Source: Lachnospiraceae bacterium (GTDB lineage Bacteria > Bacillota > Clostridia > Lachnospirales > Lachnospiraceae). From it: a stretch of 58,517 nucleotides of DNA. Location: contig JAFZNO010000044.1 of NCBI GenBank assembly GCA_017552985.1, forward strand, positions 1 through 58,517, in the 5' to 3' direction. The translations under genes and the position numbers were made by a program. This document shows, one piece after another, positions 12,205-28,249 of this stretch (its first letter is position 1; every line of letters starts with the position of its first letter). Below the pieces are notes generated by a model that was given only the letters and a program-made list of their open reading frames with translations, was not told where the DNA came from and ran no database searches.

Positions 12205-12861
12205 TTATTGTTGCAAAACTCCGTCCTCCATTCGGACAATACGCTTGCAACACTTAGCGACCTCATCATCATGCGTAGCTATGATAATTGTTTTTCCTTC
12301 CATATTTAGCTTACAAAATAAATCCATAATCTCCTTGGTAGTCTTACTGTCAAGTGCACCTGTTGGCTCATCACATAAAAGCAAACTGCAACCCGTCATC
12401 AGCGCCCTGCCAATCGCACAACGCTGTTGCTGTCCGCCAGACAAATTCAACGGCAAACTTTTCGCCCGTTCCGCAAGTCCCAATTGTTCCAAACAATCCA
12501 TGATTCTTTTCTTATAATGCCTTTGATTTCTTGCGAGCAATGGAATTTCCAAATTTTCATATACCGTTTGTCTGTTTAACAATGCAAAATTTTGAAAAAC
12601 AAAACCAATATGGTTTTTACGAAACAGATGTAACTTATGCGGACCAAAAGATGCTATGTCTTCATCTTCAAAATAGTAATGCCCTGACGTTAGCCGATCC
12701 ATCCCTCCTAGAATATTCAAAAGCGTACTTTTGCCACAACCGCTCGTTCCCATCACGGCCACCATCTCGCCTGCCTGAATTGTCATAGACGTATGGTTTA
12801 ATGCTAAAATCTCATTACTTTGACTATTATACTTTTTTGTAGCATCGACCAATTTTATCAT
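12205..12861 (-). CDS. ABC transporter ATP-binding protein, MacB/bacteriocin-export type
   Basis: 218 residues with Walker A GTSGCGKST, Q-loop and following segment IGFVFQNFALLNRQTVYENL, signature LSGGQQQRCAIGRAL, Walker B SLLLCDEPTGALD and switch THDDE. The segment around FQNFALL resembles ATPases described next to lactococcin-972-type bacteriocins, but this likeness is from memory and not tested. GAGG lies 8 bases before the start, and the gene is 4 bp after the permease gene at 12866. The pair of flanking permease genes completes the transporter. Confidence 0.9.
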   Translation of the reverse strand: MIKLVDATKKYNSQSNEILALNHTSMTIQAGEMVAVMGTSGCGKSTLLNILGGMDRLTSGHYYFEDEDIASFGPHKLHLFRKNHIGFVFQNFALLNRQTVYENLEIPLLARNQRHYKKRIMDCLEQLGLAERAKSLPLNLSGGQQQRCAIGRALMTGCSLLLCDEPTGALDSKTTKEIMDLFCKLNMEGKTIIIATHDDEVAKCCKRIVRMEDGVLQQ

Positions 12862-12865
12862 GTCA

Positions 12866-14143
12866 TCATCCTCTGTTATCCAACAATAATTCTGACGGCT
12901 TGCTGTTTTGTATAATAAGAATCGGTATCACGGCAGATAGAAAAAAAAGAATCGTCGATAATGCCAGCATTTCTGGAAGCGCGTAGCCGTTAAGCCATCG
13001 AAAAATACTTTGATTATAAGCTCCCGCGTTGGAATATTGTCTATTGCAATACCATTTCAATACCAACCATGCGCAACCCGTTCCCGCTACAAATTCAGCC
13101 ATGATTTGAAACAGCCATACCCTTATCACGTCTGTTTTTGTCATACCAAACGCAATGTAAATGCCCATGATTTGCTTATTCGAAATGATTCGCATAATGA
13201 TAATGCACAGATTCACGATTAAGCAGACAATTAAAAGAGTCCGATACAACTCCCTGTCAACCATTTCAACGTCGCGATTGTAAATCTTTTGCAATACAAA
13301 TCCATCCTGCAAGGATGCAAAATCGACGGAAAGGTTCAATTCCTTTGCCCTCTTTTCTAGGAAAGATCTCGCCTCATCTAATCCTACCCCTTCCGATACA
13401 TTAAAAATCCACGCCGTATCTTTATTCCCATCCGTCACGCCTGGTTCCATTACAATCATCACCAATCCATCTAAACACACAATTGATTGCGAACCATTTC
13501 CCTCTCCTAATGTTTTTACCTCATCTGCCAGGATGTGTTGTCCTTTTTCCAAGAACCCTATAACTTCATATTCCTTTTGATGCCCACCTTTCGACGTCTC
13601 TACGTATACGGTACCAAGAGGAATGTTTTTGAACTCAGCTCCTAAATAAATACCTTGCCAATCCGGATTTTTCCATTTTTCTTCGGGTATGTCCACTTGC
13701 CTCGAAAACTGCAAATTGCAAATTTCTAATGCCGTCCTATCGATAAAACAACTCATCACAATATCATCTCGATAGATCCCTCCCCCATCTGGAAAAACAT
13801 CTGGAAAGGTATGTTGTATTTTAGCAAGATCAACCTCCCAAATCTTGCCCCCGAAAACCCAAGTCCCAATACCCTTGATCTTTCCGGAGGCCATGGCTTC
13901 CTTCTTTAACTGGAGTGCTTCCTTCTTGTCATAATCAAGCATGCGCATTAATCCGGTTCCTGCCATTCCGCTTGTCAGCACGGCATTACACTCCCGCTTC
14001 ACTATTTCGTAATCATTTAGGAAGAGACGATAATACCCCACGCAAAAGATACTAATTCCAATCATCAAGACCGAAAAGAGAAATCTGTTTTGGGGACGAA
14101 TGATATGCCTAAGCGCAATTCGCAACACATATTTTGAATTCAT
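12866..14143 (-). CDS. FtsX-like ABC transporter permease
   Basis: 425 residues. One N-terminal helix (about 20-42), a large external domain of roughly 240 residues, then three C-terminal helices (about 300-320, 345-365, 395-415). SNKQIMGIYIAFGMTKTDVIRVW matches the FtsX coupling loop. GGAG lies 6 bases upstream of the ATG. It follows the small secreted protein gene by 15 bp and precedes the ATPase gene, so all are probably cotranscribed. The base composition is clearly richer in A and T than that of the operon at 2-9 kb. Confidence 0.85.
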   Translation of the reverse strand: MNSKYVLRIALRHIIRPQNRFLFSVLMIGISIFCVGYYRLFLNDYEIVKRECNAVLTSGMAGTGLMRMLDYDKKEALQLKKEAMASGKIKGIGTWVFGGKIWEVDLAKIQHTFPDVFPDGGGIYRDDIVMSCFIDRTALEICNLQFSRQVDIPEEKWKNPDWQGIYLGAEFKNIPLGTVYVETSKGGHQKEYEVIGFLEKGQHILADEVKTLGEGNGSQSIVCLDGLVMIVMEPGVTDGNKDTAWIFNVSEGVGLDEARSFLEKRAKELNLSVDFASLQDGFVLQKIYNRDVEMVDRELYRTLLIVCLIVNLCIIIMRIISNKQIMGIYIAFGMTKTDVIRVWLFQIMAEFVAGTGCAWLVLKWYCNRQYSNAGAYNQSIFRWLNGYALPEMLALSTILFFLSAVIPILIIQNSKPSELLLDNRG

Positions 14144-14158
14144 GACATTCTCCGTAAT

Positions 14159-14598
14159 TTATCTGGTTTTCGCAGTTATGTCAATATCACATTTGCCAGC
14201 CGCATATATATTAACATGAGAAGATATGGTAGTTAAAAAAAATTTAAACTCTTTCTTAAATTCATCATCATGCGCGTAATCACCCCGGTTTTTAACCAAA
14301 CGGCATGTAATATCTCCATTCGATGACCCACCTTTAATAGTCGTACTGCCTTTTTTGAATTCGTAGTAAGGACTACTGGTTGGATTATAATCCATAAATT
14401 CCTGAATTCCGTATACGTCAAATGACCATGCCATTTCCGTTCCATCTACGGTTACACAAACGCCAGCCGTCACCTTTTTATTCGAAATATAGTTGATAGA
14501 TCCACTGCCTGAAGCGTAATCTGTGCCAGCCATAACACTGGTGCCAATCATTAATACCATAACGGAAACAATCGTCAGAAAACATAATGCTTTTTCAT
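14159..14598 (-). pseudogene. Small secreted protein, frameshifted in the signal peptide
   Basis: The mature part (from about 14520 to 14159) is about 120 residues beginning AGTDYASGSGS, with two Cys, and matches no family I know. A well-formed ribosome site (GGAGGGG) and ATG at 14598 start the gene, but after ATG and five A the frame hits TGA within eight codons. With one more A the sequence would read MKKALCFLTIVSVMVLMIG, a perfect signal peptide that continues in frame into the body. In the present sequence the first in-frame ATG is at 14560, which leaves a truncated signal. This can be a real deletion, a phase-variable run or a sequencing error. It is the first gene of the ABC locus, so it may have been the exported or protective product. 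Confidence 0.6.
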
Positions 14599-14642
14599 AC
14601 TAATACCCCTCCTATTTTTGTTATATACATCACGATATCTAC

Positions 14643-14670
14643 GTTATCACATCCAACTGGAAACTGTCAA
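14643..14670 (-). promoter_or_regulatory. Probable promoter of the 14598-9408 locus
   Basis: On the minus strand, TTGACA (14665-14670) and GATAAC (14643-14648) are 16 bp apart, about 45 bases before the start codon at 14598. The -35 box is perfect and the -10 box matches four of six positions. Confidence 0.55.
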
Positions 14671-14753
14671 TGCGACAATTGACTTTTTCGACTAATTTTG
14701 GGGTTCATTCCGGAAACTGCATGTGAAAGAGTACCATGCATAAACCATCGTCA

Positions 14754-14782
14754 TTGATTTACGAAAACTATCGTGATAGAAT
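14754..14782 (+). promoter_or_regulatory. Probable promoter of the ABC-class ATPase gene
   Basis: TTGATT (14754-14759) and TAGAAT (14777-14782) are separated by 17 bp and lie 40 bases before the ATG at 14822. It is divergent from the promoter at 14643-14670. Confidence 0.5.
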
Positions 14783-14821
14783 AAACACGGTATCTAAAGC
14801 AATCAGAAAAGAGGATTTATC

Positions 14822-16555
14822 ATGAGAAGATTGGAACAGCTCCTTCGTGAGAATGATCATAAGCCATATCCGGCATACAAAAGCTTAAAGGGCCGTTATA
14901 TGTTTCAGGGCTACATGCTCTCCATCGATCACGTGCAGGGTGATCCCTTCGCGGCGCCCTCGTCCTTAAGCATCCACGTGGCGGCAAACCAGCACGGTCT
15001 TCCCAAGGAGTTTTACGCAGAGCCCCATCGCCGCGTCATGCTGCAGGACTTCCTTCTTCGCGGCTTTTATAAGGAGCTTGGGCGCTTTAGCCATAAGGCA
15101 GGCGGCTCCGGAAAATCAGGGACCCTCTCCGTCAGTTCCTGCGGACAGGAGGTCCTGGAGCGTTCCGCCCTGACCATCAACCCCAACGATGGAAGCCTCG
15201 TGCTCCGTTTCTCCGCGGGTTTTCCTGCCGCAGGACGCACGACCCTGGCAATGGAGCTGAAGAAAATGCTCTTTGAGTACGTGCCAGCGTGCGCGGCAAA
15301 AGCGCTTCGCTACGCCGCCATAGACAAAACCGAGATTCAAAGGTGGATCGCCCTCTCAGACGACCAGAAGGCCATCCGTGAACAGCTTGCCGGTAAAGGG
15401 CTCGTCGCATTTGTGGCAGACGGCGCCATTCTGCCCAGAAAGAGCGGGGTGGACGACAGACCCATGCAAGGCGCCGTTGCATTCGTAAGTCCTTCTGAAG
15501 ATGCCGTGACTCTCTCCCTGCCTGGCGGACGGACCATCACCGGTCTTGGCATCAGAAAGGGCATCACTCTCATCGTTGGCGGCGGCTATCACGGCAAATC
15601 CACGCTCCTAAAGGCCCTAGAGCGCGGCGTCTATAACCACGTGCCCGGGGACGGACGCGAGTACGTCATCACGGAAGACACGGCGATGAAGCTTCGCAGC
15701 GAGGACGGCCGAAGCGTAAAGCAGGTCGACGTCAGCGCCTTCATCCGAAACCTTCCCAGCAAGCGCGACACCAAGTGCTTTTCCACCGAGGACGCCAGCG
15801 GCAGCACCTCGCAGGCTGCCTGCACCGTGGAAGCCATCCTCTCCGGCAGCAAGACCCTGCTCATCGACGAGGATACCAGCGCCACGAATTTTATGGTGCG
15901 GGACGCATTGATGCAAAAGGTCATTCATTCCGGTGAGGAACCCATCATTCCGTTCCTTTCGAGAATGCGCCAGCTCTATGAAGAATTGGGAATTTCTACG
16001 ATCCTGGTTGCCGGAAGCTCCGGTGCCTTCTTCGAGGTTTCCGACCTGATCCTGCAAATGAAGGAATACAAGCCCTTCGACGTTACCATAAAAGCAAAAG
16101 AAGCCGCCGAAGCAACTTCCGATAAAATAGAAACACCTGATAAATTAGTGATTTCCGCGGATCAGCGCATCCCCTCCCCCAACCGTGAGGTGACGGAAAG
16201 CCGGAAGGTCAAGGTGCGCGGAAACGGCACGGACGCCGTCTCCATTAATCATGAATCCGTGGAGTTACGCTTTGTGGAGCAGGTCGTGGACAATGAACAG
16301 ACCAATCTCCTTGGCGCCTTGCTCCGCACGCTGGAGGAACAGTATTTTAACGGCAGGGATCCTCTGCCCAAATGCGTGAATACATTGTACGACAGGCTTT
16401 CAAAACAAGGCTTCGCGGCCTGCACCCAAGGCGGTCGCGGCGACGACGGCCGCGGCAATGCATCCGGTTCCATCCCCGGAAACCTCGCCATGGTGCGCCC
16501 ACAGGAGCTCTGGGCCATGGTAAACCGCTACAGAGGATTAAGGCTGGGAAGATAA
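14822..16555 (+). CDS. Predicted ATPase of the ABC class
   Basis: 577 residues, the typical length of the family of stand-alone 'ABC-class' P-loop ATPases, whose cellular role is not established. Seen: Walker A-like GGGYHGKSTLLKALERGVYNH (about 252-272), SGSTSQAA as a signature-like segment, Walker B-like TLLIDEDTSATNFM, and ILVAGSSGAF near the switch position. A low-complexity linker rich in Ala, Lys and Glu (about 420-450) precedes the C-terminal part. AGAGG lies just before the ATG. It is a single-gene unit with its own promoter and a terminator that overlaps its stop. A stretch of 27 bases in the linker region recurs at 23240-23266. Confidence 0.88.
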   Translation: MRRLEQLLRENDHKPYPAYKSLKGRYMFQGYMLSIDHVQGDPFAAPSSLSIHVAANQHGLPKEFYAEPHRRVMLQDFLLRGFYKELGRFSHKAGGSGKSGTLSVSSCGQEVLERSALTINPNDGSLVLRFSAGFPAAGRTTLAMELKKMLFEYVPACAAKALRYAAIDKTEIQRWIALSDDQKAIREQLAGKGLVAFVADGAILPRKSGVDDRPMQGAVAFVSPSEDAVTLSLPGGRTITGLGIRKGITLIVGGGYHGKSTLLKALERGVYNHVPGDGREYVITEDTAMKLRSEDGRSVKQVDVSAFIRNLPSKRDTKCFSTEDASGSTSQAACTVEAILSGSKTLLIDEDTSATNFMVRDALMQKVIHSGEEPIIPFLSRMRQLYEELGISTILVAGSSGAFFEVSDLILQMKEYKPFDVTIKAKEAAEATSDKIETPDKLVISADQRIPSPNREVTESRKVKVRGNGTDAVSINHESVELRFVEQVVDNEQTNLLGALLRTLEEQYFNGRDPLPKCVNTLYDRLSKQGFAACTQGGRGDDGRGNASGSIPGNLAMVRPQELWAMVNRYRGLRLGR

Positions 16556-16570
16556 CTTCCCAGCTTTTTT
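16543..16570 (+). terminator. Rho-independent terminator overlapping the stop codon
   Basis: GCTGGGAAG (16543-16551) and CTTCCCAGC (16556-16564) form a 9-bp stem with loop ATAA, followed by six T. The TAA stop of the ATPase gene lies in the loop region. Confidence 0.88.
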
Positions 16571-16574
16571 CGAG

Positions 16575-18356
16575 TTACAGATCATAATTAGCTCTTTGCG
16601 CATCCCACATCTCCTTATACAATCCGCCTCTCCTCAGCAGATCGGCATGCTCTCCTTGCTCCTCTAACTTAGAATTATGAAAAACCAAAATTCTGTTACA
16701 GAAAGAGCAACTCGAAAGCCTATGTGATATAAACAGAAATATGGAATGCTTTTGTTTCTCGGCAAACTCGTTAAAGTGATCGTATAATTCCTTTTCCGCT
16801 TTGGGATCCAGTGAAGCCGTAGGTTCATCCATCACGTAGACTTCCGCTGATTTGTACAGCATGCGGGCCGTTGCAAGTTTCTGTCTTTGTCCCCCTGATA
16901 ATTCAATGCCACCCTTGTCAAACTGTTTCCCGATAATCGTGTTATCATTGAAAGGCAGATCTTTTACAACTTCCTCAAATCCCGAATTCATCATGGCGTT
17001 TTGATATTGATCTTGATCGATCTTTCTGCCTATGGATATATTATCAGATACTTTTCCCACGGGAAGAAAAAAGTCCTGAAAAATAGCTGTCATTTTCCTC
17101 CTAAGTCCTTCGGCATCATACTCCCGCATATCCCGTCCATTCACCAGAATCTCCCCGGAATCAGGACGGAAAAAACCAAAAAGCAATTTAACAATTGTTG
17201 TCTTTCCGGCACCGTTCGTTCCTACTATCGCTATTCGCTCCCCCGCCTGAATACTAAATGAAACATCATCCAACACCCTTTTGTCAACCCCTTTATATGA
17301 GAAGGAAACATTCCTAAACTCAATGGTTTTGATATCTTCACACTCTCTTTTCCCCTGATGTTCCTGATCATTTACTTCATTTATGAATTCCCGTTGAAAT
17401 ATAACGAAATCCTCCAGATACACACATTTTTCCAGCAATGTTATAACTGCCGCCACCAACTCTGACGCCGCTCCCGCAAGTTGAACCATTGCACTTACGT
17501 ACATGGTCAATTGTCCAATAAGTATTCTGCCAAGTATGGCTAGTCGTGCAACGTAAATATAGCTTACCATCATTTGCAAAACACTGCTAAGCTTTCCTAT
17601 GCAGTTATATTTGGCAGATTTCGCACATACCGTTTTTAAGGTTTGATAACTCTTTTCATTATATTGGCCAACCTTTTCACTGAGCATTGGCTCCGCATCA
17701 AAAAACCGGATGTCCTTAGCCCACTTAAAATCAGTAATCATTCGTATGTAATACGTAAACTTACGGTTAATCGGCTGCAGTTCTTTTGAAAATTGAATTG
17801 TTACGTCTGCCAGTTTCTTATGACACCAGCAGTATATACCTATCGTCAACATAAAAAATAGAGATATCCATATACTTAAAAGTGATAGAATGTAGATAAG
17901 TCCAATTAGCCGGATAACACAAATAAAAATAGATACAATCTGATCAAAAAAGCTTTTGATAATGTTTTGTCTAACAATCGGAAACATCGCTTTGGCCTCA
18001 AGGTCCAAAAAACTAGCCGTCTCCAGTTTTTCATAACTTACAGATGCCAGATTATCTGAAACCAGCGCCTGAACCTTTTGTGTCACCACTTCAGCCTTCA
18101 GTTGAATGGAACGCTCCAAAAAGCCTTTAAAGAAAAACAACGTGACGTCCAAGGCAATCATAATGATCGTGTTTTCTAAGATGTTTTGAATGTTTTTCCC
18201 GGTACTCAATTCATTTACAATTATCATTGGAAAATAGATGTTGACAAACGGCATCACGGCAGAGGTCATGACAAAAAAAAGTAGCATTACACAATACTTT
18301 TTATCCATTTCCCATATGATCTTGAAAAAGGAAATAATCAACTTAAGTTTCTTCAT
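16575..18356 (-). CDS. ABC exporter half-molecule (membrane plus ATPase domain), RiPP cluster
   Basis: About 593 residues: six predicted helices in residues 1-320, then a nucleotide-binding domain with Walker A GTNGAGKTT, Q-loop FQDFFLPVG, signature LSGGQRQKLATAR, Walker B VYVMDEPTASLDP and switch FISHR. No C39 peptidase domain is present, so it cannot itself remove the leader peptide. The start at 18356 has GGGAG 5 bases upstream and overlaps the preceding exporter gene by 14 bases, which indicates tight coupling and a heterodimer. It is the last gene of the cluster. Peptide export is inferred from the neighbouring precursor and maturase genes. Confidence 0.9.
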   Translation of the reverse strand: MKKLKLIISFFKIIWEMDKKYCVMLLFFVMTSAVMPFVNIYFPMIIVNELSTGKNIQNILENTIIMIALDVTLFFFKGFLERSIQLKAEVVTQKVQALVSDNLASVSYEKLETASFLDLEAKAMFPIVRQNIIKSFFDQIVSIFICVIRLIGLIYILSLLSIWISLFFMLTIGIYCWCHKKLADVTIQFSKELQPINRKFTYYIRMITDFKWAKDIRFFDAEPMLSEKVGQYNEKSYQTLKTVCAKSAKYNCIGKLSSVLQMMVSYIYVARLAILGRILIGQLTMYVSAMVQLAGAASELVAAVITLLEKCVYLEDFVIFQREFINEVNDQEHQGKRECEDIKTIEFRNVSFSYKGVDKRVLDDVSFSIQAGERIAIVGTNGAGKTTIVKLLFGFFRPDSGEILVNGRDMREYDAEGLRRKMTAIFQDFFLPVGKVSDNISIGRKIDQDQYQNAMMNSGFEEVVKDLPFNDNTIIGKQFDKGGIELSGGQRQKLATARMLYKSAEVYVMDEPTASLDPKAEKELYDHFNEFAEKQKHSIFLFISHRLSSCSFCNRILVFHNSKLEEQGEHADLLRRGGLYKEMWDAQRANYDL

Positions 18357-20139
18357 TGTTTCTCCCACCATAGTATTGTGATTGAATCCGAAACATTTCT
18401 GCATATATTCCGCCCAATTGGATCAGTTCTTTATGAGTGCCCTGCTCGCATACGCATCCCTTTTTTAGAACAATGATTTTATCGCAAAACCGTGTGCTTG
18501 ACAGACGATGAGAAATGTATATGGATGCATTGTTGTCTGAAATTCCGTTATATGCTTCATATATTTCTTTTTCTGCGAGAGGATCAAGCGATGAAGTTGG
18601 CTCATCCATCATTAGAAAGCTTGCCTGCCGATAGTCTCCCCTCGCGATTACTAGTTTTTGTGCTTCACCGCCAGATAAATAAATTCCATTCTCATCTATG
18701 CTTTTCCCTATAAAGGTGTCCCCTTGATTCTCAAAAGAAGAAAATTTTTCATATAAACCGACATGTTCTAAGGCTTTATCGCAAAGGCGCTCGTCCAAAA
18801 AGCTCCTGGATTTCATTGCCACGTTCTCCCGGATTGAAAAATCAAGTACGTTCACGTCTTGAAAGACGGCGGATATGCATGCTTGCATGGATTTTTTATC
18901 AATGTTTTGAATTGGCACTCCATTTAGATAAATGCATCCCGACGTCGGCTTATAAAAACCACAAATCAATTTAATTAGCGTCGTTTTTCCTGATCCGTTT
19001 TCTCCAACAAGCCCTGTCTTTTCCCCTTTTTTTATTGAAATATTAATATTGTTTAACGTATTTTCCGTGGCCCCGGGATATTTGAAACAAACATTTTCAA
19101 ATCTTAACTCAAAGTCCTCCGGCAGAACTTGCGTCTTTTCCTCTTCAGTACTTGAGCCTTCAATAAACACGCGAAATCTTGTCATTTTTTTGTTTTCTTC
19201 ACTTAATGCCGCGCAATTATTTGAACACCGTATTACCGAGTTTGTAAACTGCATCATTAACAACAGAAAAAAGGCAAAATCCCCAATCAGCATTCTGCCA
19301 GTGATCACTTCACATATAAGATAGCCATAGATAACTGCCTCACGAACGCATAAAAAAATGGCATCAACAAAATTTGTAAAACCATCCCTTCGCATAATTT
19401 GCTTTATTACTTTAGAATACCTGCGGATGCTCTCATTCATCTGACCGAGCAACCAACTCTTCATGTCAAATAAGCGAATGTCCTTTCCATTGGAATCTTT
19501 CGCAAAAAGAGTCTCATAATACTGTATTTTCCTTTGAATGCCGTTTAATTCCGGTTCTTTTGACAATTCATATTGATACTGTGCCTTATGAACAAGGAAA
19601 TGCGTGATTCCGCACGCAGCAAGTATAACCAAAAGCCAATTCTGCAAAGAAACCAAAAGCCCCAGCGCAACAAGAATAAAGATGAAATCGATCGCCGTCT
19701 CCAGGCATTTTTTTATATATATCGCCAGGCCCTTCTGCGAAGAACCCGTAAACGTACAGGACTGTTCAATTCCATCCAAGACTTCAGGTGATTCCAACCG
19801 TTCAAATTCAATTAGCATGACCCGCTTGTAAAACTTGGCTAAATACTTAAAGCGAACATACGTGATCTTGGAATCATGTATGGATACTACGTACTCCTTT
19901 AACAGTTCCAAAACCGTCACAAGCCCAAAAAGGACAATCAGTAATTTAACAATATTGCCCCATTCGTTTTTTTGCATTACTTGATTAATAATATATCGCG
20001 GGATTAAAACGTTAATTAGCGGAACAAAAGCGTGCGCAAGAACATAAAGCAGAAAGAAGGACAAAATACCCCTATCCCACTCGCTCACGTCTTTTAATAT
20101 ATATCGAATATTATTTATCACCGAAAACTTATTCTTCAT
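18343..20139 (-). CDS. ABC exporter half-molecule (membrane plus ATPase domain), RiPP cluster
   Basis: 598 residues with an N-terminal membrane domain of about six helices and a C-terminal ATPase domain: Walker A GENGSGKTT, FQDVNVLDFS, signature LSGGEAQKLVIARGDY, Walker B FLMMDEPTSSLDP, switch YISHR. The start codon at 20139 lies only 6 bases after one arm of the 22-base inverted repeat, and the only ribosome-site-like bases (GAGAA) are inside that arm, so pairing of the arms could limit translation. It should dimerise with the product of the next gene. No peptidase domain is visible. Confidence 0.9.
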   Translation of the reverse strand: MKNKFSVINNIRYILKDVSEWDRGILSFFLLYVLAHAFVPLINVLIPRYIINQVMQKNEWGNIVKLLIVLFGLVTVLELLKEYVVSIHDSKITYVRFKYLAKFYKRVMLIEFERLESPEVLDGIEQSCTFTGSSQKGLAIYIKKCLETAIDFIFILVALGLLVSLQNWLLVILAACGITHFLVHKAQYQYELSKEPELNGIQRKIQYYETLFAKDSNGKDIRLFDMKSWLLGQMNESIRRYSKVIKQIMRRDGFTNFVDAIFLCVREAVIYGYLICEVITGRMLIGDFAFFLLLMMQFTNSVIRCSNNCAALSEENKKMTRFRVFIEGSSTEEEKTQVLPEDFELRFENVCFKYPGATENTLNNINISIKKGEKTGLVGENGSGKTTLIKLICGFYKPTSGCIYLNGVPIQNIDKKSMQACISAVFQDVNVLDFSIRENVAMKSRSFLDERLCDKALEHVGLYEKFSSFENQGDTFIGKSIDENGIYLSGGEAQKLVIARGDYRQASFLMMDEPTSSLDPLAEKEIYEAYNGISDNNASIYISHRLSSTRFCDKIIVLKKGCVCEQGTHKELIQLGGIYAEMFRIQSQYYGGRNNEET

Positions 20140-20145
20140 AATTAA

Positions 20146-20167
20146 TTCTCATATGGCAGACTATTAT
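20146..20167. repeat. Inverted repeat, arm on the exporter side
   Basis: 22 bases starting TTCTCATATGG. Its reverse complement matches the arm at 20371-20392 at 20 of 22 positions; one of the two differences would be a G-U pair in RNA. The arm begins 6 bases before the start codon of the exporter gene (minus strand). Confidence 0.85.
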
Positions 20168-20216
20168 TGTTACAGTGTTTTTGAGTTGCTTAAAACAATA
20201 TTGGTAAAAAAGTTAA

Positions 20217-20348
20217 TTATTGAGCCAGCGAGGGGCCATAGCAATCCCCACAATGAGTGCAAACAACGATCTGCTTAATTCCAGCCTTCTCAAGCGTTAC
20301 TTCTTCAAACTTAATCTCAACGTTCTTTTCATTCTTCTCAGTCTTCAT
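20217..20348 (-). CDS. Precursor peptide of a radical-SAM RiPP
   Basis: A 43-residue ORF that short-ORF filters miss. The N-terminal part is highly charged (MKTEKNEKNVEIKFEEVTLE), as expected of a leader, and the C-terminal part CTHCGDCYGPSLAQ has three Cys (positions 30, 33 and 36; CxxCxxC) and would be the core. GGAGGG (20356-20361) lies 7 bases before the ATG and supports translation. It sits between the second radical SAM/SPASM gene and the ABC exporter genes, the usual place for a RiPP precursor. Such enzymes often make Cys thioether bonds (sactipeptides, ranthipeptides); which bond is made here is not known. It resembles no precursor family that I can name. The gene lies exactly inside a 22-base inverted repeat. 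Confidence 0.85.
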   Translation of the reverse strand: MKTEKNEKNVEIKFEEVTLEKAGIKQIVVCTHCGDCYGPSLAQ

Positions 20349-20370
20349 TCTTTTACCCTCCAATTTTATC

Positions 20371-20392
20371 ATAATAGTCTGCCCTATAAGAA
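20371..20392. repeat. Inverted repeat, arm on the maturase side
   Basis: 22 bases starting ATAATAGTCTGCC. It begins 1 base after the stop codon of the second radical SAM gene (minus strand) and ends about 10 bases before the precursor's ribosome site. Partner arm: 20146-20167. Confidence 0.85.
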
Positions 20393-20393
20393 G

Positions 20394-21725
20394 TTAAAGA
20401 ATAAATTCTTTAACCAAAAACGAAAATACTCTTTTTTCCAATTCACAACCTTCCGGATCGCCTTCATCTTCTGCGTTCTCAGCTGAAATTGCTTCCGCAA
20501 CGCATCCGCCTCCGCAATAACTTGCGATTGGACACCCTTTGCACTTATTCACTATATCCGCATTGCGCGTCGCCAGAAAAATATACTCGGGTTTTGAAAA
20601 TAATTGCATGCCTTCGTCAATTGTGCCAAATGCGCTCTGCGCAGCTCCACAGCCATATATGTTTCCCTCTGGGCTCACACATAGTTCAAATCCATTTCCT
20701 CCGCAATGCCGGCCATTATTCCCATGCATCATATTGTTGAAGATCATAAACGTATTGCCGCCGGAAAGGTCTAGGTTTCTTTTTTTTGCATACTCTATTG
20801 CCTCAAAGAAATAATTCAAGCGCTCATCAAGACTTTTTTCAACTATTCCTGACTTATTGCAGATGTGAACGTTATTGAGGCTTAGTTTGCATTCAAAATC
20901 ATAACTTGATTTCTTCTCCGCAACATAATCAATCAATTCCTTCAGATGAGAAAAATTCTGATCCGTCATGACCGTGGTTAACGCCGTGATGCATCCATTT
21001 GCAGCAAGCAAATCTATGCTTTGGTTCACTTTTTCAAAACTACCCGTGCCATTTTTATATCTTCGGTTAACGTCATGCTGCTCTTTGAGTCCGTCAATGC
21101 TCAAAATTACGATCACGTGGTATTCTTTGAAAAAACGGCACATTTCATCCGTGATCAAGGTTCCATTGGTATTAACGACGTAGCTTTTATCAATATACTC
21201 CGGAAAAGTATTCTCAATATACTCGATGCATTCTTTCATCAAGGGATAATTTATGAGAGGCTCTCCGCCAAAAAAACGAATCATGCATTGCGGGGATTTG
21301 TTTTTGATAAGGACCTCCCTAAAAAAATCCATGGCTTTTCTTGCTACGCTGAAATCCATATTTTTTCTGTGAATTGTGTGATTTGTTACTCTTTCATAAC
21401 AATATGAGCAATCTAAATTGCACATTTCACTAATGTTTAATCGCAGTGATTTTATTAATCCTCCGCCCTTAATAAAATCAATGTCATATCCTAATGCTTC
21501 TTGCTCATTCCGCTGAGATTTCACTAACTCAAGTTTTCTTAGCATGTCATATAAGCCCGGGTAATCCGATGCCATCTCTTCTTCCGTAACCGTTCCCTGT
21601 TCAGCCCCTGTCAATATGTCCTTAACGACCTTGCTGCATTTAATCTTTTTCCCATTTCTGCTGTTATATAGAAAAATATCCTTTTCGCCTTCAATCATGC
21701 AGAGACTTGAATCCAGATATCCCAT
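20394..21725 (-). CDS. Radical SAM/SPASM peptide maturase
   Basis: 443 residues. An N-terminal segment (about 1-90, with IFLYNSRNGKKIKC) resembles the precursor-binding part of such maturases. The radical SAM core has the iron-sulfur motif CNLDCSYC (Cys102, 106, 109) and FFGGEPL. The C-terminal SPASM domain binds auxiliary clusters through CGGNGFELC, GNIYGCG, CKGCPIASYCGGGC and the Cys near the end. It shares length and layout with the product of the preceding gene 46 bp away, so the two are probably old duplicates. The precursor gene follows directly. Expected role: modification of the Cys-rich core, probably with the companion enzyme. The exact chemistry cannot be read from the sequence. 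Confidence 0.93.
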   Translation of the reverse strand: MGYLDSSLCMIEGEKDIFLYNSRNGKKIKCSKVVKDILTGAEQGTVTEEEMASDYPGLYDMLRKLELVKSQRNEQEALGYDIDFIKGGGLIKSLRLNISEMCNLDCSYCYERVTNHTIHRKNMDFSVARKAMDFFREVLIKNKSPQCMIRFFGGEPLINYPLMKECIEYIENTFPEYIDKSYVVNTNGTLITDEMCRFFKEYHVIVILSIDGLKEQHDVNRRYKNGTGSFEKVNQSIDLLAANGCITALTTVMTDQNFSHLKELIDYVAEKKSSYDFECKLSLNNVHICNKSGIVEKSLDERLNYFFEAIEYAKKRNLDLSGGNTFMIFNNMMHGNNGRHCGGNGFELCVSPEGNIYGCGAAQSAFGTIDEGMQLFSKPEYIFLATRNADIVNKCKGCPIASYCGGGCVAEAISAENAEDEGDPEGCELEKRVFSFLVKEFIL

Positions 21726-21771
21726 GTCATACCCCTTTTGACATTTTCTTGAAATGTCTATTTTTTCACTT

Positions 21772-23097
21772 CTATGATAAAAGATATTCCCGCACTAACT
21801 CTTGAAACAACAATACTTGGAACTTCCGGTCTCGGCACGTATTTGGGGGTTTCCCATCATCAGACATATAATCCGCGTAACACCCTCCGGCGCAATAATA
21901 CTCTATTTCACACCCATGACATTTTTTCTCAAACCCGCAAGTTCTCCGTAACAGATTCGTATATTCGTCACTTCTCAAGGCTTGATCTATCGCGTCTATC
22001 GAACCTAATTCAATCTGTAATCCATCACATGGATAGATTTTTCCGTCCGGCATTACGCTTAATTCTGCTCCCAAGCACACGCAATGCCGCCCCCCATTGG
22101 GTGACATCATGTTTTGGAAAACTTGATGCGTAAAACCTCCATAACAATTCACGCCGCGTTGTCTGGCCTTCTTAATTGCTTCCATGATCTTTAAAACTCT
22201 GTCCGCACTCTTGGTTTTAGTCTCCTCATGTGTGATGTGCACGTAGCTTAACGCTAGTCCGCACTCGCAAAAAAACTTTGCGTTCAAATCACAAACATAA
22301 TCAACTATTTCTCCTAACAAATTAAGATTCGACTCATTAACAACCGTTGCTATGTCTACGGAGCAATGATGCATCAATAAACAACGTAAACCCCGATCTA
22401 CTCTTTCAAAAGAACCCTTGCCGTCCCTGTCAATCCGATAATAATCATTTGTTATTCCAACCCCGTCCATGCTGACCACGACTTGAATGTCATTTTCGCA
22501 GAAATATTCAGCCATTTCATCCGTTATCAGCGTTCCATTCGTATTTACAATATAACGGATTTGCATGTCAGCAGGCTTAGTACTCTTTACGTAATTAACC
22601 AAATAGACAATCAACGGATAATTCAGCAGAGGCTCACCGCCGAAGAATCTAACATTTCCTTCATTTCTTCCATTCTTCTTTAATAATTGCAAAAATATGT
22701 CTATCGCCTTTTGCGCGGTTTCCCTGTCCATTGTTTGATGGCCCATATACTGCTTAGAATTGCTTTCAAAACAATATGAACAACATAAATTGCAATTATG
22801 CGTGACGTTTAATCGAAGATTTGAAATATGGATGCCCGTTCTTGCTTTTTCCAACATGGCTTCCGTGGGCGGATAATAATGGCAATCGTTCTTTGCCTCT
22901 TTTGTCGCCCCCTCGATCATTCCTTTTTCGAAGAACCAGTTTAGCTGTTTCTTCGCGTCAGTTTCCTCTTCTTTCAAGGCGAATAACAAATTATGATAAT
23001 TCTCCCATGACAATTTGCATTTTTCGCCATTTACGGAGTTATACATAAAAACACCGGTTTTGCCCTCTATTACATGCGTACGTTCCGATAATCTCAC
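21772..23097 (-). CDS. Radical SAM/SPASM peptide maturase
   Basis: 441 residues. The N-terminal segment carries VFMYNSVNGEKCKL, parallel to its neighbour. The core cluster motif is CNLCCSYC (Cys102, 106, 109, at the same positions as in the neighbour), followed by RFFGGEPLLNYPL. The SPASM domain shows HCVCLGAELSV, KIYPCDG, CGFEKKCHGCEIEYYCAGGC and a last Cys in NTCRDRK. It is the first gene of the cluster, with promoter and repeat motifs upstream (23138-23240). Two maturases for one short precursor suggest two reactions, or a heterodimer in which one partner binds the leader. Sequence divergence between the two argues against a recent duplication. Confidence 0.93.
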   Translation of the reverse strand: MRLSERTHVIEGKTGVFMYNSVNGEKCKLSWENYHNLLFALKEEETDAKKQLNWFFEKGMIEGATKEAKNDCHYYPPTEAMLEKARTGIHISNLRLNVTHNCNLCCSYCFESNSKQYMGHQTMDRETAQKAIDIFLQLLKKNGRNEGNVRFFGGEPLLNYPLIVYLVNYVKSTKPADMQIRYIVNTNGTLITDEMAEYFCENDIQVVVSMDGVGITNDYYRIDRDGKGSFERVDRGLRCLLMHHCSVDIATVVNESNLNLLGEIVDYVCDLNAKFFCECGLALSYVHITHEETKTKSADRVLKIMEAIKKARQRGVNCYGGFTHQVFQNMMSPNGGRHCVCLGAELSVMPDGKIYPCDGLQIELGSIDAIDQALRSDEYTNLLRRTCGFEKKCHGCEIEYYCAGGCYADYMSDDGKPPNTCRDRKFQVLLFQELVREYLLS

Positions 23098-23137
23098 TTG
23101 TTAACATCCTTTGCATAATTACTTATTTATTGTTTTC

Positions 23138-23166
23138 AGTATTACATATGCCATACTCAAGAACAA
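23138..23166 (-). promoter_or_regulatory. Candidate promoter of the RiPP cluster
   Basis: On the minus strand, TTGTTC (23161-23166) and AATACT (23138-23143) are 17 bp apart, with TG one base before the -10 box (extended type). It lies about 40 bases before the first maturase gene. The weak -35 box would fit a promoter that needs an activator. Confidence 0.45.
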
Positions 23167-23240
23167 CAAGATTTGGATGAACGACATATTTTTTTGATGA
23201 ACAACATTTTTTTATCGTTCTTCGCAGAAAAGCGAACAAC
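23161..23240. promoter_or_regulatory. Repeated GAACRAC motifs upstream of the RiPP cluster
   Basis: GAACAAC or GAACGAC occurs at 23161, 23179, 23199 and 23234 on the plus strand. The middle two are part of longer direct repeats (GATGAACRACAT at 23176-23187 and 23196-23207) exactly 20 bp apart, each followed by a T run. Spacing of two helical turns next to a weak -35 box is typical of activator sites, but no regulator gene for it is recognised nearby. Confidence 0.4.
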
Positions 23241-23295
23241 AAAAGAAGCCGCCGAAGCGACTTCCGTAAAAATCCCTGACAAAATTTTATGCTAA
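23239..23295 (+). pseudogene. Relic of the ABC-class ATPase gene
   Basis: Read on the plus strand this encodes TKEAAEATSVKIPDKILC and a stop, close to KEAAEATSDKIETPDKLV in the ATPase at 14822-16555. At DNA level 23240-23266 matches 16095-16121 at 26 of 27 bases. No further homology is seen on either side. It lies just outside the RiPP cluster on the side opposite the intact gene. Confidence 0.55.
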
Positions 23296-23314
23296 CCAAT
23301 AATGAGGATGAAAC

Positions 23315-23644
23315 CTACAAAAACCAAACTCCCGCCAGTAATCCAAGGTGAATTACAAGGCGGATCACGTGATGCAGGTAATTGGGCTTTTTCTTGAGTA
23401 CAAATCCATTATGGTACGCGCACGCCGAGATGGTCAGCAAATCCAGCACCAGCAGCAAGATTCCTAAGACTTCCCTGTCAAAAAGGAAGGCCGGAAGGGA
23501 AAGAAGCCCAAGAAGAAGCGCTACGTAGTACAGGGCTTTCTTCCATGCGGTAATCCCTTCCGCCTTACTCTTGTGAACGGAAAAACAATTCAGTATGTTA
23601 TACAAAATGATGATAACAATAAAAACCATCTTCCCCCAGCTCAA
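23315..23644 (-). CDS. Small membrane protein of unknown function
   Basis: About 109 residues with four hydrophobic segments (VFIVIIILYNIL, ALYYVALLLGLLSLPAF, LGILLLVLDLLTI, VIRLVIHLGLLAGVW), so an integral membrane protein. I recognise no family. The start is uncertain: TTG at 23644 has GGGAGG 8 bases upstream and is preferred over a TTG at 23683 or ATG at 23629. It follows the GGDEF gene closely and is probably the last gene of that operon. Confidence 0.6.
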   Translation of the reverse strand: MSWGKMVFIVIIILYNILNCFSVHKSKAEGITAWKKALYYVALLLGLLSLPAFLFDREVLGILLLVLDLLTISACAYHNGFVLKKKPNYLHHVIRLVIHLGLLAGVWFL

Positions 23645-23694
23645 TTGGCTTTCCTCCCATCGCGTTTTTCCGCAATTTCCCAAGCATCCTGCAC

Positions 23695-25116
23695 TCAGCG
23701 GTATTTCTTTTCAGGATATTTCTGATAGTATCTCTCCTTGTCCTCATACATGCGCTTGTCGGCCAGGCTCATGTCCTTCAGGACGTCGATCTGCCCATTG
23801 TCAAAGCTGTATCCCACGGAGAAGCTGACTTCCCCGTCCTGTTCACAAATCTCCTGAAGGCGTGCGATCCGGGCCATCAGTTTCTCCAAGGTGTCCTCCA
23901 GGCAAAGAATCATGAATTCATCGCCGCCGGCGCGGTAGATCTCATCCTCCGGAAATACCATGCGCAAAATGATAGCGGCCTTTTTCAAAAGGCGGTCGCC
24001 AGAGGCATGTCCCTCGTGATCGTTTATGACCTTTAGTCCGTTGAGGTCGGCAAAGATGACGCTCAAACTCCTTGGCTTTACAAAATTAGGATTCTCAAAC
24101 TCTGCCACCCTGTTATTCATGGCATTTCTGTTCTTGCTGCCCGTCAAAAGGTCGATGGTGCTCAGCGTCTCCAGACGCTTCACCAACTGATGGTTTTCGA
24201 TCTCAGAGGCAATAAAGAACGTCGTCAACTCCAAAACACCCTTGATCTTTAACACGTTCTTCACGTCAAAGTTGGAAGCCCAGATATAGCCCAGCAGTTT
24301 CTCATTATCCTTTAGCGGGAAAAGTACCAGCGTCTCCACCGCCACTCTCTGCAGGGACTGATACCAGTCCGGGTTCCGCTTCTTTAGCATCTGCCTGTCC
24401 TGCTCGTTTTTGATGATCAAACAGGAATCATTTCCGAGCGTGTCTTTCCAAGAGCTCACCACGTGGTAAAACTCCGTGTTCATACTCTCCCGCGTGCGGG
24501 TCGCCACGTAACCCTCGCGCACGGAATCGCCGAGAACCGTGCAGGTTCCCGCTTCTTCATCCACCATGAGGATGCAGCAGCGCCTCGCGTCACAGATCAG
24601 CCGGATGTCCGTGATGACTTCACTTATGCATTCCTCAAAACCCTTTGTCCCGTGCAATTTGATACAGGAATCCAGCACGGCTGACGCCACCTCCGGTGCC
24701 ACGTCCGTCCTGGTGGTCGCGCTGGTCTTCGGTCGCAGATTATAGGAATAAACGCAATACCCGACGTTTTCCTGGTCCGATCTAAGCGGCAGCATGTAAA
24801 CCTCCAGCCAAAAACCAAGTTCGGCCAGATCCACGTAGGAATGACGCTGTTCGTGCAAAATGGCGCTCCTGTAGCAGTCATCCTCGAAGGTCAGGTTTTT
24901 CTGGAAGCATTCCTCATACGGAACGTCCTTTTGGAACGCATGTCCCCGCACGTTCTGAATTCTTTCGGCATGACCGCAGTTTCCCGCAACCACGCGGATA
25001 TTCCCGTAACTTCCGTCAGGATAGGTCTCCACGGACATCACGCACGCCATGCATTCATAACTATCCACTAAGCTTTGAAAATCCATGATTATCTGAAGCA
25101 CTCCTTTCAGATTCAT
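23695..25116 (-). CDS. GAF-GGDEF diguanylate cyclase
   Basis: 473 residues. The N-terminal part (about 1-150) is a possible sensor region, the middle (about 155-300) looks like a GAF domain (CILMVDEEAGTC), and the C-terminal third is a GGDEF domain with intact AGGDEF in YRAGGDEFMILC, expected to make cyclic di-GMP. I see no RxxD inhibitory site directly before it. No membrane segment is predicted. The start codon at 25116 overlaps the stop of the upstream MutS-like gene (ATGA); a second ATG at 25086 also has an AAAGGAG in front, though 14 bases away. Confidence 0.85.
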   Translation of the reverse strand: MNLKGVLQIIMDFQSLVDSYECMACVMSVETYPDGSYGNIRVVAGNCGHAERIQNVRGHAFQKDVPYEECFQKNLTFEDDCYRSAILHEQRHSYVDLAELGFWLEVYMLPLRSDQENVGYCVYSYNLRPKTSATTRTDVAPEVASAVLDSCIKLHGTKGFEECISEVITDIRLICDARRCCILMVDEEAGTCTVLGDSVREGYVATRTRESMNTEFYHVVSSWKDTLGNDSCLIIKNEQDRQMLKKRNPDWYQSLQRVAVETLVLFPLKDNEKLLGYIWASNFDVKNVLKIKGVLELTTFFIASEIENHQLVKRLETLSTIDLLTGSKNRNAMNNRVAEFENPNFVKPRSLSVIFADLNGLKVINDHEGHASGDRLLKKAAIILRMVFPEDEIYRAGGDEFMILCLEDTLEKLMARIARLQEICEQDGEVSFSVGYSFDNGQIDVLKDMSLADKRMYEDKERYYQKYPEKKYR

Positions 25117-26765
25117 TCAAATCGCAAAACTTCATCATACAATTCCAGTCCGAAACTCGTCATTTCGGGCGCATGCGGAAGGATCTTGTAGGTTCGCGTC
25201 CCATCCTCAAGGCGCTGTGCGCTCAGGAAGGAGACGTCAGACCACGCCGCATCTGATTTCAGCGTTTGGCCGTCATCACGTGCCTGCGACTCTTCATATA
25301 CGCGCTGCGCGAAGGATAACAGATGCGTTACCGTAAGGATCCGGACGCCCTCCTCCTTCAGCGCGCGGATAATGCCGTAAGCGATCTCGGAGCCTTCCTT
25401 TTCCGTCGTGGTGGCAAAGGATTCATTTAATAAAAGCAGGGAATCCTTTCCAAGATTGCTGACGATCTGATCCATCCTGCGCAGCTCCTCGTCCAGTCTT
25501 CCGCTGTTCATGGCACTGTCCTCGCGCCTTGTAAAGTGCGTAAAGAAGTTGGGATACAGGCCGCTGCAATATTGCTTTGCAGGTACCATGAGTCCGCACT
25601 GCATCATCACCTGCGCGATCCCGACGCTTCGAAGGAAGGTGGACTTACCGCCCTGATTGGCTCCCGTGACGATCACCAGCGCCTTACCATCCAGCTTCTC
25701 GTCATTGCCGACGGTTTCCCCCTTTTGCTTCATGCTCATGACCATTTCCTTTAGGTCTTCGAAGTGAAGGCTCTCCTGCCCTCCCACCTCCGGGAAGCAA
25801 TAATCCAATTTATGTCGCTGCATCTGATATTTGATATTAATGGCTCCCAGGTAAAAGGCAATCTGGAAGCGAAGCTGGTCGAAAAACTGTCCTAAGGAAT
25901 TTGCCACGCTGCTGCAACACGCATACACGTAATTCACGGCCTCAAATTCCAGCTGCGCCGCGTCCTCCCGCATCGCCTGGTCCTTATACAGCGCGATCAC
26001 GCCGGGCGTCAGACTGTTCACCTGTCCCTGGATTTTCGCTTTGATGCCATAGGGATTGCTGTATTTCTTTTCGATGGTCTCAACGTCATTTAGTTTTAGG
26101 CTGCCGATCTTTAATCCGTCCTCCAAGCCGCACTCCATCCGGATGCGCGGACTGTAGGAATAAAAGACATTGCGTTTGGGCTGGCGAACGGTCACGTCCG
26201 TATAGAACGACAGATCCTGCAGGATCTTTTCCAGATTCTGGCGTCTGTCTTCCGAAAACTCGATTTCCAAACGGTCATACAGATCGCGGAAACCCTTGGA
26301 GTGCAAGTTTTCTTTGTACTCCCTGAGGATTTCCTTCACCTTCTGCATGCCGGAAGTAAGGAGCCGGAGCACTTGAAGATCCGTGATCAGCTCCGCCTTG
26401 GTGTCACGGATCCCCGTGCCGCCGCGCTTTCTGCCCAGCCTGTCCCACTTTTCCAGAATCTGGCCGGCATGCTGATACAGCTTCCCAACAAAGTCCTCAT
26501 TCACCAGGCAATCCTGCAAAATCTCCTGGCGGTACCTCACTTCTTCCTTGGTTTTTAAGGGAACGCACGCAACCCTTTTCACGGCAAAGCCAACGTAAGC
26601 ATCCTCATGCTCCGCAAAGACAACCCTGCTTGACTGCACGATGCTGTCCTGTCTTGCGGCCCAGAACAGCGTGTCCAGCCCCAGGTCCGTCACCATGCTT
26701 GCCCAGTCAAAATAGGGATTGACCGGCGTCCACTCCTTATAATCATATAATAAGCCTACGTTCAT
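25113..26765 (-). CDS. MutS-like ATPase, second of a pair
   Basis: 550 residues. The C-terminal third is a MutS-type ATPase domain: Walker A TGANQGGKST (about 367-376), Walker B SLLLLNES, and VTHLLSF. The N-terminal part is helical and corresponds to the lever/clamp region. The mismatch-recognition domain of MutS (with its Phe-x-Glu) and the connector are missing, and there is no Smr nuclease domain as in MutS2. Its start overlaps the stop of the sister gene (26762-26765, ATGA), which points to a stable pair. Function is unknown; MutS-type ATPases work as dimers, so a heterodimer is a fair inference. Confidence 0.85.
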   Translation of the reverse strand: MNVGLLYDYKEWTPVNPYFDWASMVTDLGLDTLFWAARQDSIVQSSRVVFAEHEDAYVGFAVKRVACVPLKTKEEVRYRQEILQDCLVNEDFVGKLYQHAGQILEKWDRLGRKRGGTGIRDTKAELITDLQVLRLLTSGMQKVKEILREYKENLHSKGFRDLYDRLEIEFSEDRRQNLEKILQDLSFYTDVTVRQPKRNVFYSYSPRIRMECGLEDGLKIGSLKLNDVETIEKKYSNPYGIKAKIQGQVNSLTPGVIALYKDQAMREDAAQLEFEAVNYVYACCSSVANSLGQFFDQLRFQIAFYLGAINIKYQMQRHKLDYCFPEVGGQESLHFEDLKEMVMSMKQKGETVGNDEKLDGKALVIVTGANQGGKSTFLRSVGIAQVMMQCGLMVPAKQYCSGLYPNFFTHFTRREDSAMNSGRLDEELRRMDQIVSNLGKDSLLLLNESFATTTEKEGSEIAYGIIRALKEEGVRILTVTHLLSFAQRVYEESQARDDGQTLKSDAAWSDVSFLSAQRLEDGTRTYKILPHAPEMTSFGLELYDEVLRFE

Positions 26766-28249
26766 GAGAATCTCTCCTTCAGCTGCTCATAGGTCAACCT
26801 GTACTTCTCCACCTGCCGGTTTGCTCCGGCGAGTTCCTCCGCTTCGCTTCTACTGATCTGATAAGTCAGCTTCTGATTCTCATCCACGCCCGCGCGCAGG
26901 CTCACGACGCCGTCGCAGGCCTTTGAGAGCTCCCCAAGATGGGTCACGTAGATTCCCTTGCACTGCTCCCCGATAAAGTACTCCAGCACCCTTTTTCCCA
27001 TGACGTTCGCATCAAAATTGGCTGCTGTGGTGAAAAGCTCGTTGATCACGACAAATGCATTCTCCTGGCCCTTCTCCATCATGGGTTTTAAGCGGACAAG
27101 TTCATCCATGAGCTTGCCCCGTCCCGTCTCCGTGCTCTCCTCCACGGAAAAATGCGTCCAGAGATTCCCGTAATACGGAACCTCCGCAAACCGCGCCGGC
27201 ACGTCGAGCCCCATCTTTGTGAAATAAATGAGTTGTCCAAGACTCCTGGCGTACGTTGTTTTCCCGCCCTGGTTCGGGCCCGTCAGCACAAAGAAGCTCT
27301 CCTCCTGCGCCAGGTAGGCGTCATTGGCAACAACGGTTTTTCCGGATTCGGAATTGACATATGCCAGCGCAAGGTCATATAACCCCTTTGTGGACAACAC
27401 GTTTGAGACCTTGGGCGTACTGAAGACTAGCCCGCGTCCCTCCATTTTCCTCTGAAACTGCGCATATGCAAGATAGTATCCCATCTCCGTCGCAAGGCGC
27501 GCCATTTCAGCGTGAACGTACTTAAATTGCTTTTTATAAAATGCCCCCAGCTTCTCGAAAAAGTCTTTGTGCTTTTTTCGAAACAGCCGGACGATCTCTT
27601 CTTCTAATCTCGAGAAATCCTCATCTGCCTGAAAGGGACTTTTGAAGGTCTTGCCGTGCTCTGGAAAGCTCTCTTCCAAAAAGGCTTCATAATCTCCCTT
27701 TTCCTTCCCCTCTGCAAGCGTAAAACGCTCCTTCTCATAGGTGAGGGTCACGCGAAAGCCTGACAATTCCTGCCAAAGCGCAGATACCTCAGCGCTAAAC
27801 TCCTGAAACGCCTTGTCGGAAAGGAACTTCGCAAGCAGGTCCTTTAGTCCCTTCAAACCTTCTGACTGAAACGTTGCCTTCCCAAGCGCGGCATGCAAGG
27901 CCTCCAGGGAAGCCACGTAAAGCTGCGCCTCGCGAAGGTACCACGCCTGTTGTTGCGCTTCATCCTCCGCTTTCTCCCTGCGTGCCGCGAACAGAGAACG
28001 CTCACGGATGCTCCGCTCGAAGTCCATCATGGCAGCAAAGACTTCCTCCTGCTTTACGTCGCCGTAAATGGCCCTCCGGTATTCCTCTGATGCCGGATCC
28101 GATGGGAAGGATTCATAAAGCCTTCTTACTTCATCGTTCCAATCCTCCGTCACCTTCGCCATGATCTGGTCCAGATTCAGGTCCGTAAAGAAGACCGGAG
28201 CCGAAGCATTTCGTTCTTTCGGTTCACTCAAATTCAACAAACTAAACAT
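26762..28249 (-). CDS. MutS-like ATPase, first of a pair
   Basis: 495 residues. It has a helical N-terminal region rich in Glu and Lys (about 60-290) and a C-terminal MutS-type ATPase domain with Walker A TGPNQGGKTT, Walker B NAFVVINELFTT and YVTHLGEL. It lacks the mismatch-recognition and connector domains of canonical MutS and a MutS2 Smr domain. The gene overlaps the end of mfd by 16 bases and the next MutS-like gene by 4, so all three are translated from one message. Association with mfd suggests DNA repair or transcription-repair coupling, but this is only context. Confidence 0.85.
   Translation of the reverse strand: MFSLLNLSEPKERNASAPVFFTDLNLDQIMAKVTEDWNDEVRRLYESFPSDPASEEYRRAIYGDVKQEEVFAAMMDFERSIRERSLFAARREKAEDEAQQQAWYLREAQLYVASLEALHAALGKATFQSEGLKGLKDLLAKFLSDKAFQEFSAEVSALWQELSGFRVTLTYEKERFTLAEGKEKGDYEAFLEESFPEHGKTFKSPFQADEDFSRLEEEIVRLFRKKHKDFFEKLGAFYKKQFKYVHAEMARLATEMGYYLAYAQFQRKMEGRGLVFSTPKVSNVLSTKGLYDLALAYVNSESGKTVVANDAYLAQEESFFVLTGPNQGGKTTYARSLGQLIYFTKMGLDVPARFAEVPYYGNLWTHFSVEESTETGRGKLMDELVRLKPMMEKGQENAFVVINELFTTAANFDANVMGKRVLEYFIGEQCKGIYVTHLGELSKACDGVVSLRAGVDENQKLTYQISRSEAEELAGANRQVEKYRLTYEQLKERFS

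Follow-up and report, generated by a model that had tools for sequence, protein, structure and literature searches.

A five-gene radical SAM peptide cluster behind a LytTR-type box at a putative cargo exchange site in Lachnospiraceae

A stretch of 58,517 nucleotides from a presumably gut-living Lachnospiraceae bacterium (assembly GCA_017552985.1, contig JAFZNO010000044.1), hereafter the window, carries two radical SAM genes, a gene for a 43-residue peptide and two ABC half-transporter genes in a compact cluster (Table 1). This layout had been proposed from the sequence of the window in an original prediction, and all five minus-strand reading frames were recovered by an ORF check. The genes run in the same direction, and gaps of 45-77 bp separate the maturase and precursor genes from one another and from the first exporter gene. 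The GC content of the cluster is 39.2%, compared with 56.9% in the neighbouring gene 14822-16555 and 53.8% in the region 23695-31857, which bears out the earlier description of the cluster as AT-rich relative to its surroundings. Two maturases, a short Cys-rich ORF and exporters are compatible with the RiPP logic that had been claimed for the gene set; the product, regulation and mobility of the cluster discussed below are predictions from sequence, and the peptide may have an antibacterial or signalling role.

Table 1. Coordinates of the cluster, its signals and its flanks in the window.
Feature	Position	Strand	Remark
Five-gene cluster	16575-23097	(-)	two radical SAM genes, 43-residue peptide gene, two ABC half-transporter genes
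Radical SAM/SPASM maturase A, 441 aa	21772..23097	(-)	GTG start, AAGGA 9 nt upstream
Radical SAM maturase B, 443 aa	20394..21725	(-)	paralogue of A, SPASM-type cysteines by alignment
5' arm of 22-nt inverted repeat	20371..20392	(-)	encloses precursor gene with 3' arm
Candidate precursor peptide, 43 aa, C-terminal CTHCGDCYGPSLAQ	20217..20348	(-)	no family above cut-off
3' arm of 22-nt inverted repeat	20146..20167	(-)	immediately before ABC 1 start codon
ABC half-transporter 1, 598 aa, without C39	18343..20139	(-)	canonical nucleotide-binding motifs
ABC half-transporter 2, 609-aa ORF, without C39	16575..18404	(-)	canonical motifs; likely start 18356
Segment replaced by different cluster in sister G787	16565..23175	(-)	flank alignment
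Candidate promoter	23139..23166	(-)	-35 TTGTTC from 10 nt past repeat 2; -10 region TAATAC/AATACT
LytTR-type direct repeat GTTGTTCAT-11 bp-GTCGTTCAT	23176..23205	(-)	repeats 23205-23197, 23185-23177
122-aa protein, flank gene	23315..23683	(-)	kept in G787 and G689; no Pfam match

Maturases A and B are paralogues with 37% identity, and both possess a CX3CX2C motif at residue 102 and a GGEP motif at residue 153. The Pfam Radical_SAM model is passed by both proteins (67.8 bits for A and 76.5 bits for B; cut-off 29.5), whereas the Pfam SPASM model is passed by A (22.4 bits; cut-off 21.5) and is absent from the matches of B, whose C-terminal cysteines nevertheless align with those of A. The claim of two radical SAM/SPASM maturases thus holds for the radical SAM domain of both enzymes and for the SPASM domain of A, while for B it holds by aligned cysteines and not by a Pfam domain. 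By motif and alignment together, A and B each possess the CX3CX2C motif, the GGEP motif and the SPASM-type cysteines of a radical SAM/SPASM RiPP maturase. No PqqD match, as a sign of an RRE leader-binding domain, is present in the N-terminal 95 aa of either enzyme.

The top NCBIfam model for both enzymes is the PapB ranthipeptide maturase (NF047865), at scores well under its cut-off (161.4 for A and 166.3 for B against 340), and the SCIFF model TIGR03974 scores 132 and 124 bits, respectively, against a cut-off of 425. Among solved structures, chains of 8vpo and 5wgg come closest, the latter of which we take to be CteB. The PapB-type likeness makes Cys-based thioether chemistry plausible here; the window differs, however, in having two enzymes, in scores that fall short of the at least 340 expected of a member, and in a precursor without the six repeated CX3D/E motifs, which places it outside the PapB family. 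PapB accepts Cys-Xn-Asp with n from 0 to 6 (PMC9413430, in the part of the text available), and the sole Asp of the candidate precursor, D35, forms C30-x4-D35 and C33-x-D35 with two of its three cysteines. The likeness to SCIFF/CteB consists of 5wgg among the nearest structures and of a distant maturase match, in genome G536, that adjoins a SCIFF-like peptide; the SCIFF peptide has six cysteines whereas that of the window has three, and the cluster does not belong to that family.

From sequence, A and B would cross-link the 43-aa precursor via Cys30, Cys33 and Cys36; its calculated mass before modification is 4809.385 Da, and every thioether formed would lower this by 2.016 Da. Two radical SAM enzymes per pathway, as in the window, are also described for thuricin CD (PMC12093266) and ruminococcin C (PMC8188230), both sactipeptide systems with precursors other than that of the window, according to the excerpts available of the two reports. 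The thuricin CD enzymes TrnC and TrnD associate tightly and need each other to work effectively (PMC12093266, same excerpt). A and B might likewise work as one complex, in which one subunit is mainly catalytic and the other supporting, and not as two link-specific enzymes; we put this forward tentatively, at a little below even odds. The two paralogues are adjacent within one operon, as such a complex would have it, but the window offers a single candidate precursor where thuricin CD has two, and both enzymes retain CX3CX2C. The latter feature does not separate the two readings, because activity is likewise found in both TrnC and TrnD.

The ABC ORFs overlap by 62 bp as called, and by 14 bp if ABC 2 starts at position 18356, which is probably its start given the GGGAGA before the ATG; the exporter genes therefore overlap as had been described. 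The absence of a C39 domain was likewise upheld, with no Pfam Peptidase_C39 match in either ABC protein; the cluster, having neither this domain nor a GG leader, is not a C39/double-glycine exporter system. Walker, signature and H-loop motifs are canonical in both proteins, and therefore no degenerate site marks a heterodimer; the gene order suggests that the two proteins pair, and as a pair they would export the modified peptide. Such exporters are widespread within the genus, occurring in 91 of 138 genomes, that of the window included (E 1e-75), and so an exporter alone does not mark a RiPP. Exporter kinship was rejected as a RiPP predictor: among 20 regions picked from the better relatives, some of them shortened by contig ends, in one (L166 of G763) the ABC pair is accompanied by radical SAM and S8 genes, and in one other (L172) a weak radical SAM match lies more than 5 kb away. 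The L166 cluster (8366-16956) combines two ABC genes with two radical SAM genes and an S8 protease, and its small ORFs include an ACP-looking 83-aa ORF and a 32-aa ORF ending in GNCAFC.

No homologous cluster was found in overlapping samples of 299, 391, 61, 138, 79 and 398 genomes. Maturase searches covered the family (299 genomes; E 1e-40), the class (391; 1e-35) and the phylum (398; 1e-45), with at most four or five first-look candidates per genome scored among the matches listed, as well as the genus (61 genomes at 1e-20 with maturase B, and 138 at 1e-38 with maturase A) and the genus of G207 (79 genomes at 1e-50). All samples include the window genome save that of the G207 genus, which was run without a positive control. 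Under the strict limits, the sole match beyond the window genome, among the matches listed, is the G536 protein in the class sample (31%). At 1e-20, 59 of the 61 genus genomes, that of the window included, match maturase B, at 27-33% over the full length and at up to 39% in shorter pieces; the looser matches of about 30% are taken to be SCIFF-type or other maturases. Plasmids and phages yielded distant radical SAM proteins only, viral contigs yielded four distant radical SAM matches with an alignment and none with single proteins, and a scan of the genomes' contigs yielded one locus, which is unrelated.

The cluster lies next to the flank gene 14822-16555, with a terminator at about 16564. This gene is present in 89 other genomes of the genus, and the site was fetched in the 10 sisters in which its identity is at least 74%, G777 excepted; G777 and 78 genomes at about 50-58% lay outside the comparison. 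Cargo is present in four of the 10 sisters fetched: G787, G689, G794 and G723. In G787, the match to the window ends past the terminator and resumes at 23176, thus taking in the LytTR-type box, and 6.1 kb (38.4% GC) stand where the window has 6.6 kb (39.0%). The G787 cargo encodes a C39 transporter (PF03412), two short peptides, which by our reading carry GG, a solute-binding-like protein and one protein without a Pfam match. In G794, a lasso cluster (lasso leader at 20.6 bits, just above the cut-off of 19; Asn_synthase; PqqD), accompanied by a radical SAM gene, lies between the flank gene and an 87.7% identical orthologue of the window's 1207-aa protein, and in G723 a C39 cluster and a radical SAM/S8/two-ABC cluster are seen with one flank only. 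G689 is without window positions 16541-23304, and its cargo, which encodes an M16 peptidase, a nucleotidyltransferase and further proteins, lies on the opposite side of the 122-aa gene, so the insertion point differs. Some G689 proteins look kinase-like from one weak P-loop hint below the cut-off, and a peptide cluster in G689 is the weakest of these readings. The products of all sister clusters are predictions.

In the remaining sisters, G776 has regulator genes and no cargo, G696 and G744 pass directly from the flank gene to genes from beyond the cluster, the ORF lists of G715 and G700, where the flank gene alone matches, include no peptide cluster, and the G778 site runs into a contig end. 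The window and four of 10 sisters thus show cargo that varies while site and box type are shared, the clean swap being that of G787. The earlier suggestion that the region could be transferred, and its acquisition as a block, are compatible with a site that is empty or differently filled in the sisters.

Several further observations were made at these sites. In G689 (L049 12434-14182), the flank gene continues past the missing cluster with a changed C-terminus, and so this site may be a deletion at the microhomology GGATTAA/GGATGAA and not an untouched empty site. An S8 protease in G723 (L099 11110-12894) resembles QhpE (98.1 bits; cut-off 165), and its C-terminal part resembles TIGR04066 (99.5; cut-off 200) and DUF1611. 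Beyond the flank gene, on the side away from the cluster, the window carries a second AT-rich operon (9408-14560, minus strand; 39% GC) for a secreted-looking 133-aa protein, FtsX-like permeases and an ABC ATPase resembling lactococcin-972 transporters (225.4 bits; cut-off 254.85); this operon is found in G689 and G787, with the 133-aa protein 100% identical, and is unmatched in G696 and G744. At 25113-28249 on the minus strand, two neighbouring ORFs that share 4 bases encode MutS domain V proteins (495 and 550 aa) with relatives in several sister stretches.

The box that bounds the G787 swap lies upstream of maturase A and consists of 9-bp repeats with an 11-bp gap, giving a period of 20; the pattern with a period of 21 had no matches. 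The original prediction had mentioned neither this box, nor the putative exchange locus, nor the inverted repeat that encloses the precursor gene. Published LytTR repeats are mostly separated by 12 and in some cases by 11 bp, and they strongly favour a position 10 bp upstream of the -35 element (PMC6193735, available in part). Judged by sequence only, the window conforms to what is expected of a LytTR-controlled promoter, namely 9-bp direct repeats with a gap of 11-12 bp, lying some 10 bp ahead of the -35. In 184 records (1.30 Mb), with ten repeat loci excluded from the count, GTTCAT pairs were counted 10 times at a spacer of 14 (8 distinct), once at 15 and not at any other spacer within 8-21. 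The reversed hexamer TACTTG, as a control, gave 0 at 14 and 1 at 16 but also had a peak of its own, with 7 at 18, some of which may come from overlapping loci; this peak counts against the box reading. A scored scan of 14 stretches from the ten sisters returned 10 boxes (16-18/18) in six stretches of five sisters and none in the other eight stretches. A TTG stands exactly 10 nt past repeat 2 in 10 of 11 boxes, that of the window included, against a background of 1.9%, although the boxes are related sites and the count is therefore not independent. Boxes precede the cargo operons of all four cargo-bearing sisters (G787, G689, G723 and G794), and so recur before unrelated peptide operons, and in G794, G776 and G723 they also adjoin genes for LytTR or GHKL regulators. 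A G723 stretch (L183 762-1457) has three boxes, of which two stand back to back and one lacks a -35, beside a LytTR regulator and a receiver-less LytTR fragment. A single site reaches 18/18 in the window and the 1.36 Mb sampled from its genome, and the runner-up scores 15/18.

LytTR-domain (PF04397) regulators are encoded in G723, no more than about 15 kb from the flank gene, and in G794, on the far side of the cargo; that of G776 was assigned by 47% identity, and GHKL kinases (PF14501) are present in G794 and G776. A search of the window and of 1.36 of the 3.86 Mb of its genome gave no close relative of these regulators; the best one there has 28% identity and may or may not serve the window box. 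A regulator encoded elsewhere in the genome would, in our reading, switch the cluster on in trans from the box at 23205-23176; activation by a LytTR-type regulator is probable from the sequence, and it would place the cluster under cell-signal control. We favour, at a probability of roughly two in three, the reading that the radical SAM RiPP pathway is one alternative cargo at an exchange locus beside gene 14822-16555, where the cargo would be exchanged and the switch retained. The distant regulator, the lower -10 score of the window, the deviating insertion point in G689 and the lack of a homologous cluster in the samples searched count against it.

An ordinary chromosomal RiPP cluster that is expressed constitutively, with the upstream repeats left over from an earlier cargo and without action on the cluster, would account for a box that is part of the flank common to G787, for the lack of a cognate regulator in the sampled sequence and for the poorer -10 of the window, which scores 4/6 where nine of the ten other box sites score 5/6. 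It fits poorly, however, with a TTG retained exactly 10 nt past repeat 2 while the sequence downstream varies between cargoes, and we consider it unlikely.

The reading as an exchangeable RiPP pathway also assumes that the 43-aa ORF is the substrate of A and B, as its sequence and position suggest. Its gene has a GGAGG 8 nt upstream of the ATG, and the 43-residue candidate with CxxCxxC is present as described. The peptide lacks a double-glycine leader; the original prediction had the leader cleaved off by an enzyme from elsewhere in the genome, but it may also stay uncleaved. Neither Pfam nor PHROGs gave a match, and NCBIfam gave LysW at E 0.09 only, in agreement with the claim that the precursor lies outside known families. 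Within a 7.4-kb region, no other ORF of 30-100 aa carries CxxCxxC in the C-terminal half; such an ORF arose in 4 of 100 order-1 Markov shuffles, and one with a ribosome site in 0 of 100, in a test set up once the motif had already been noticed. That the maturases act on another peptide, with the small ORF a chance occurrence or a metal-binding peptide, gains from the lack of relatives in which ORF and maturases could be seen to co-occur; we consider it improbable, given the shuffles with motif and ribosome site, the placement of the ORF between maturase and exporter genes, and the inverted repeat that encloses it.

The arms of this repeat pair at 20 of 22 positions, a value reached by 0 of 60 shuffles, and they can close an RNA stem around the precursor message that masks the stretch upstream of the ABC 1 start (z = -1.77). 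An RNA element separating precursor from exporter expression is the favoured reading, on little evidence. The 13-nt core common to both arms has no exact copy elsewhere in the assembly, and a dispersed element was rejected, as copies of the core with one mismatch number 8 besides the two exact ones, equal to the control (8). An invertible precursor gene with on/off variation of the product would suit the near-perfect 22-nt arms and their singular core, but the five genes include no recombinase and the arms also fit the RNA stem, modest as its fold score is; we consider inversion very improbable.

Returning to the exchangeable cargo, streptococci already provide examples of radical SAM RiPPs linked to cell signalling (PMC13361665); those quorum-sensing-linked RaS-RiPPs go with Rgg/SHP regulators, whereas the window has a LytTR-type box, and the two are likened by description from the available part of that report and not by sequence. 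The pneumococcal blp locus, whose bacteriocin immunity region is variable (PMC6422914, likewise available in part), offers a comparison in its way of working and not in membership: a changeable peptide cargo stands under a quorum-sensing regulator, and two-component genes lie at the site in some of the present sisters. Unlike at blp, whole pathways of different chemistry (lasso, C39/GG and radical SAM) appear to alternate here, and in the window genome no regulator accompanies the locus. Among the matches listed from open-licence literature, in the text portions available, no exchangeable peptide locus behind a LytTR-type box in Lachnospiraceae was found.

Whether these sites amount to a genus-wide system is evenly balanced in our judgement. 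In such a system, a fixed site by a LytTR-type box would dock complete pathways with their own enzymes (radical SAM, lasso, double-glycine or M16/kinase-like) under one cell-signal regulator, and the window cluster, with its new precursor, would so far be a unique cargo. If this is true, a short DNA box would predict hidden peptide antibiotics or signals of any chemistry in these bacteria and would show one regulator taking over newly acquired pathways. With the cluster itself comes a small candidate substrate on which its two paralogous radical SAM enzymes can be tested.
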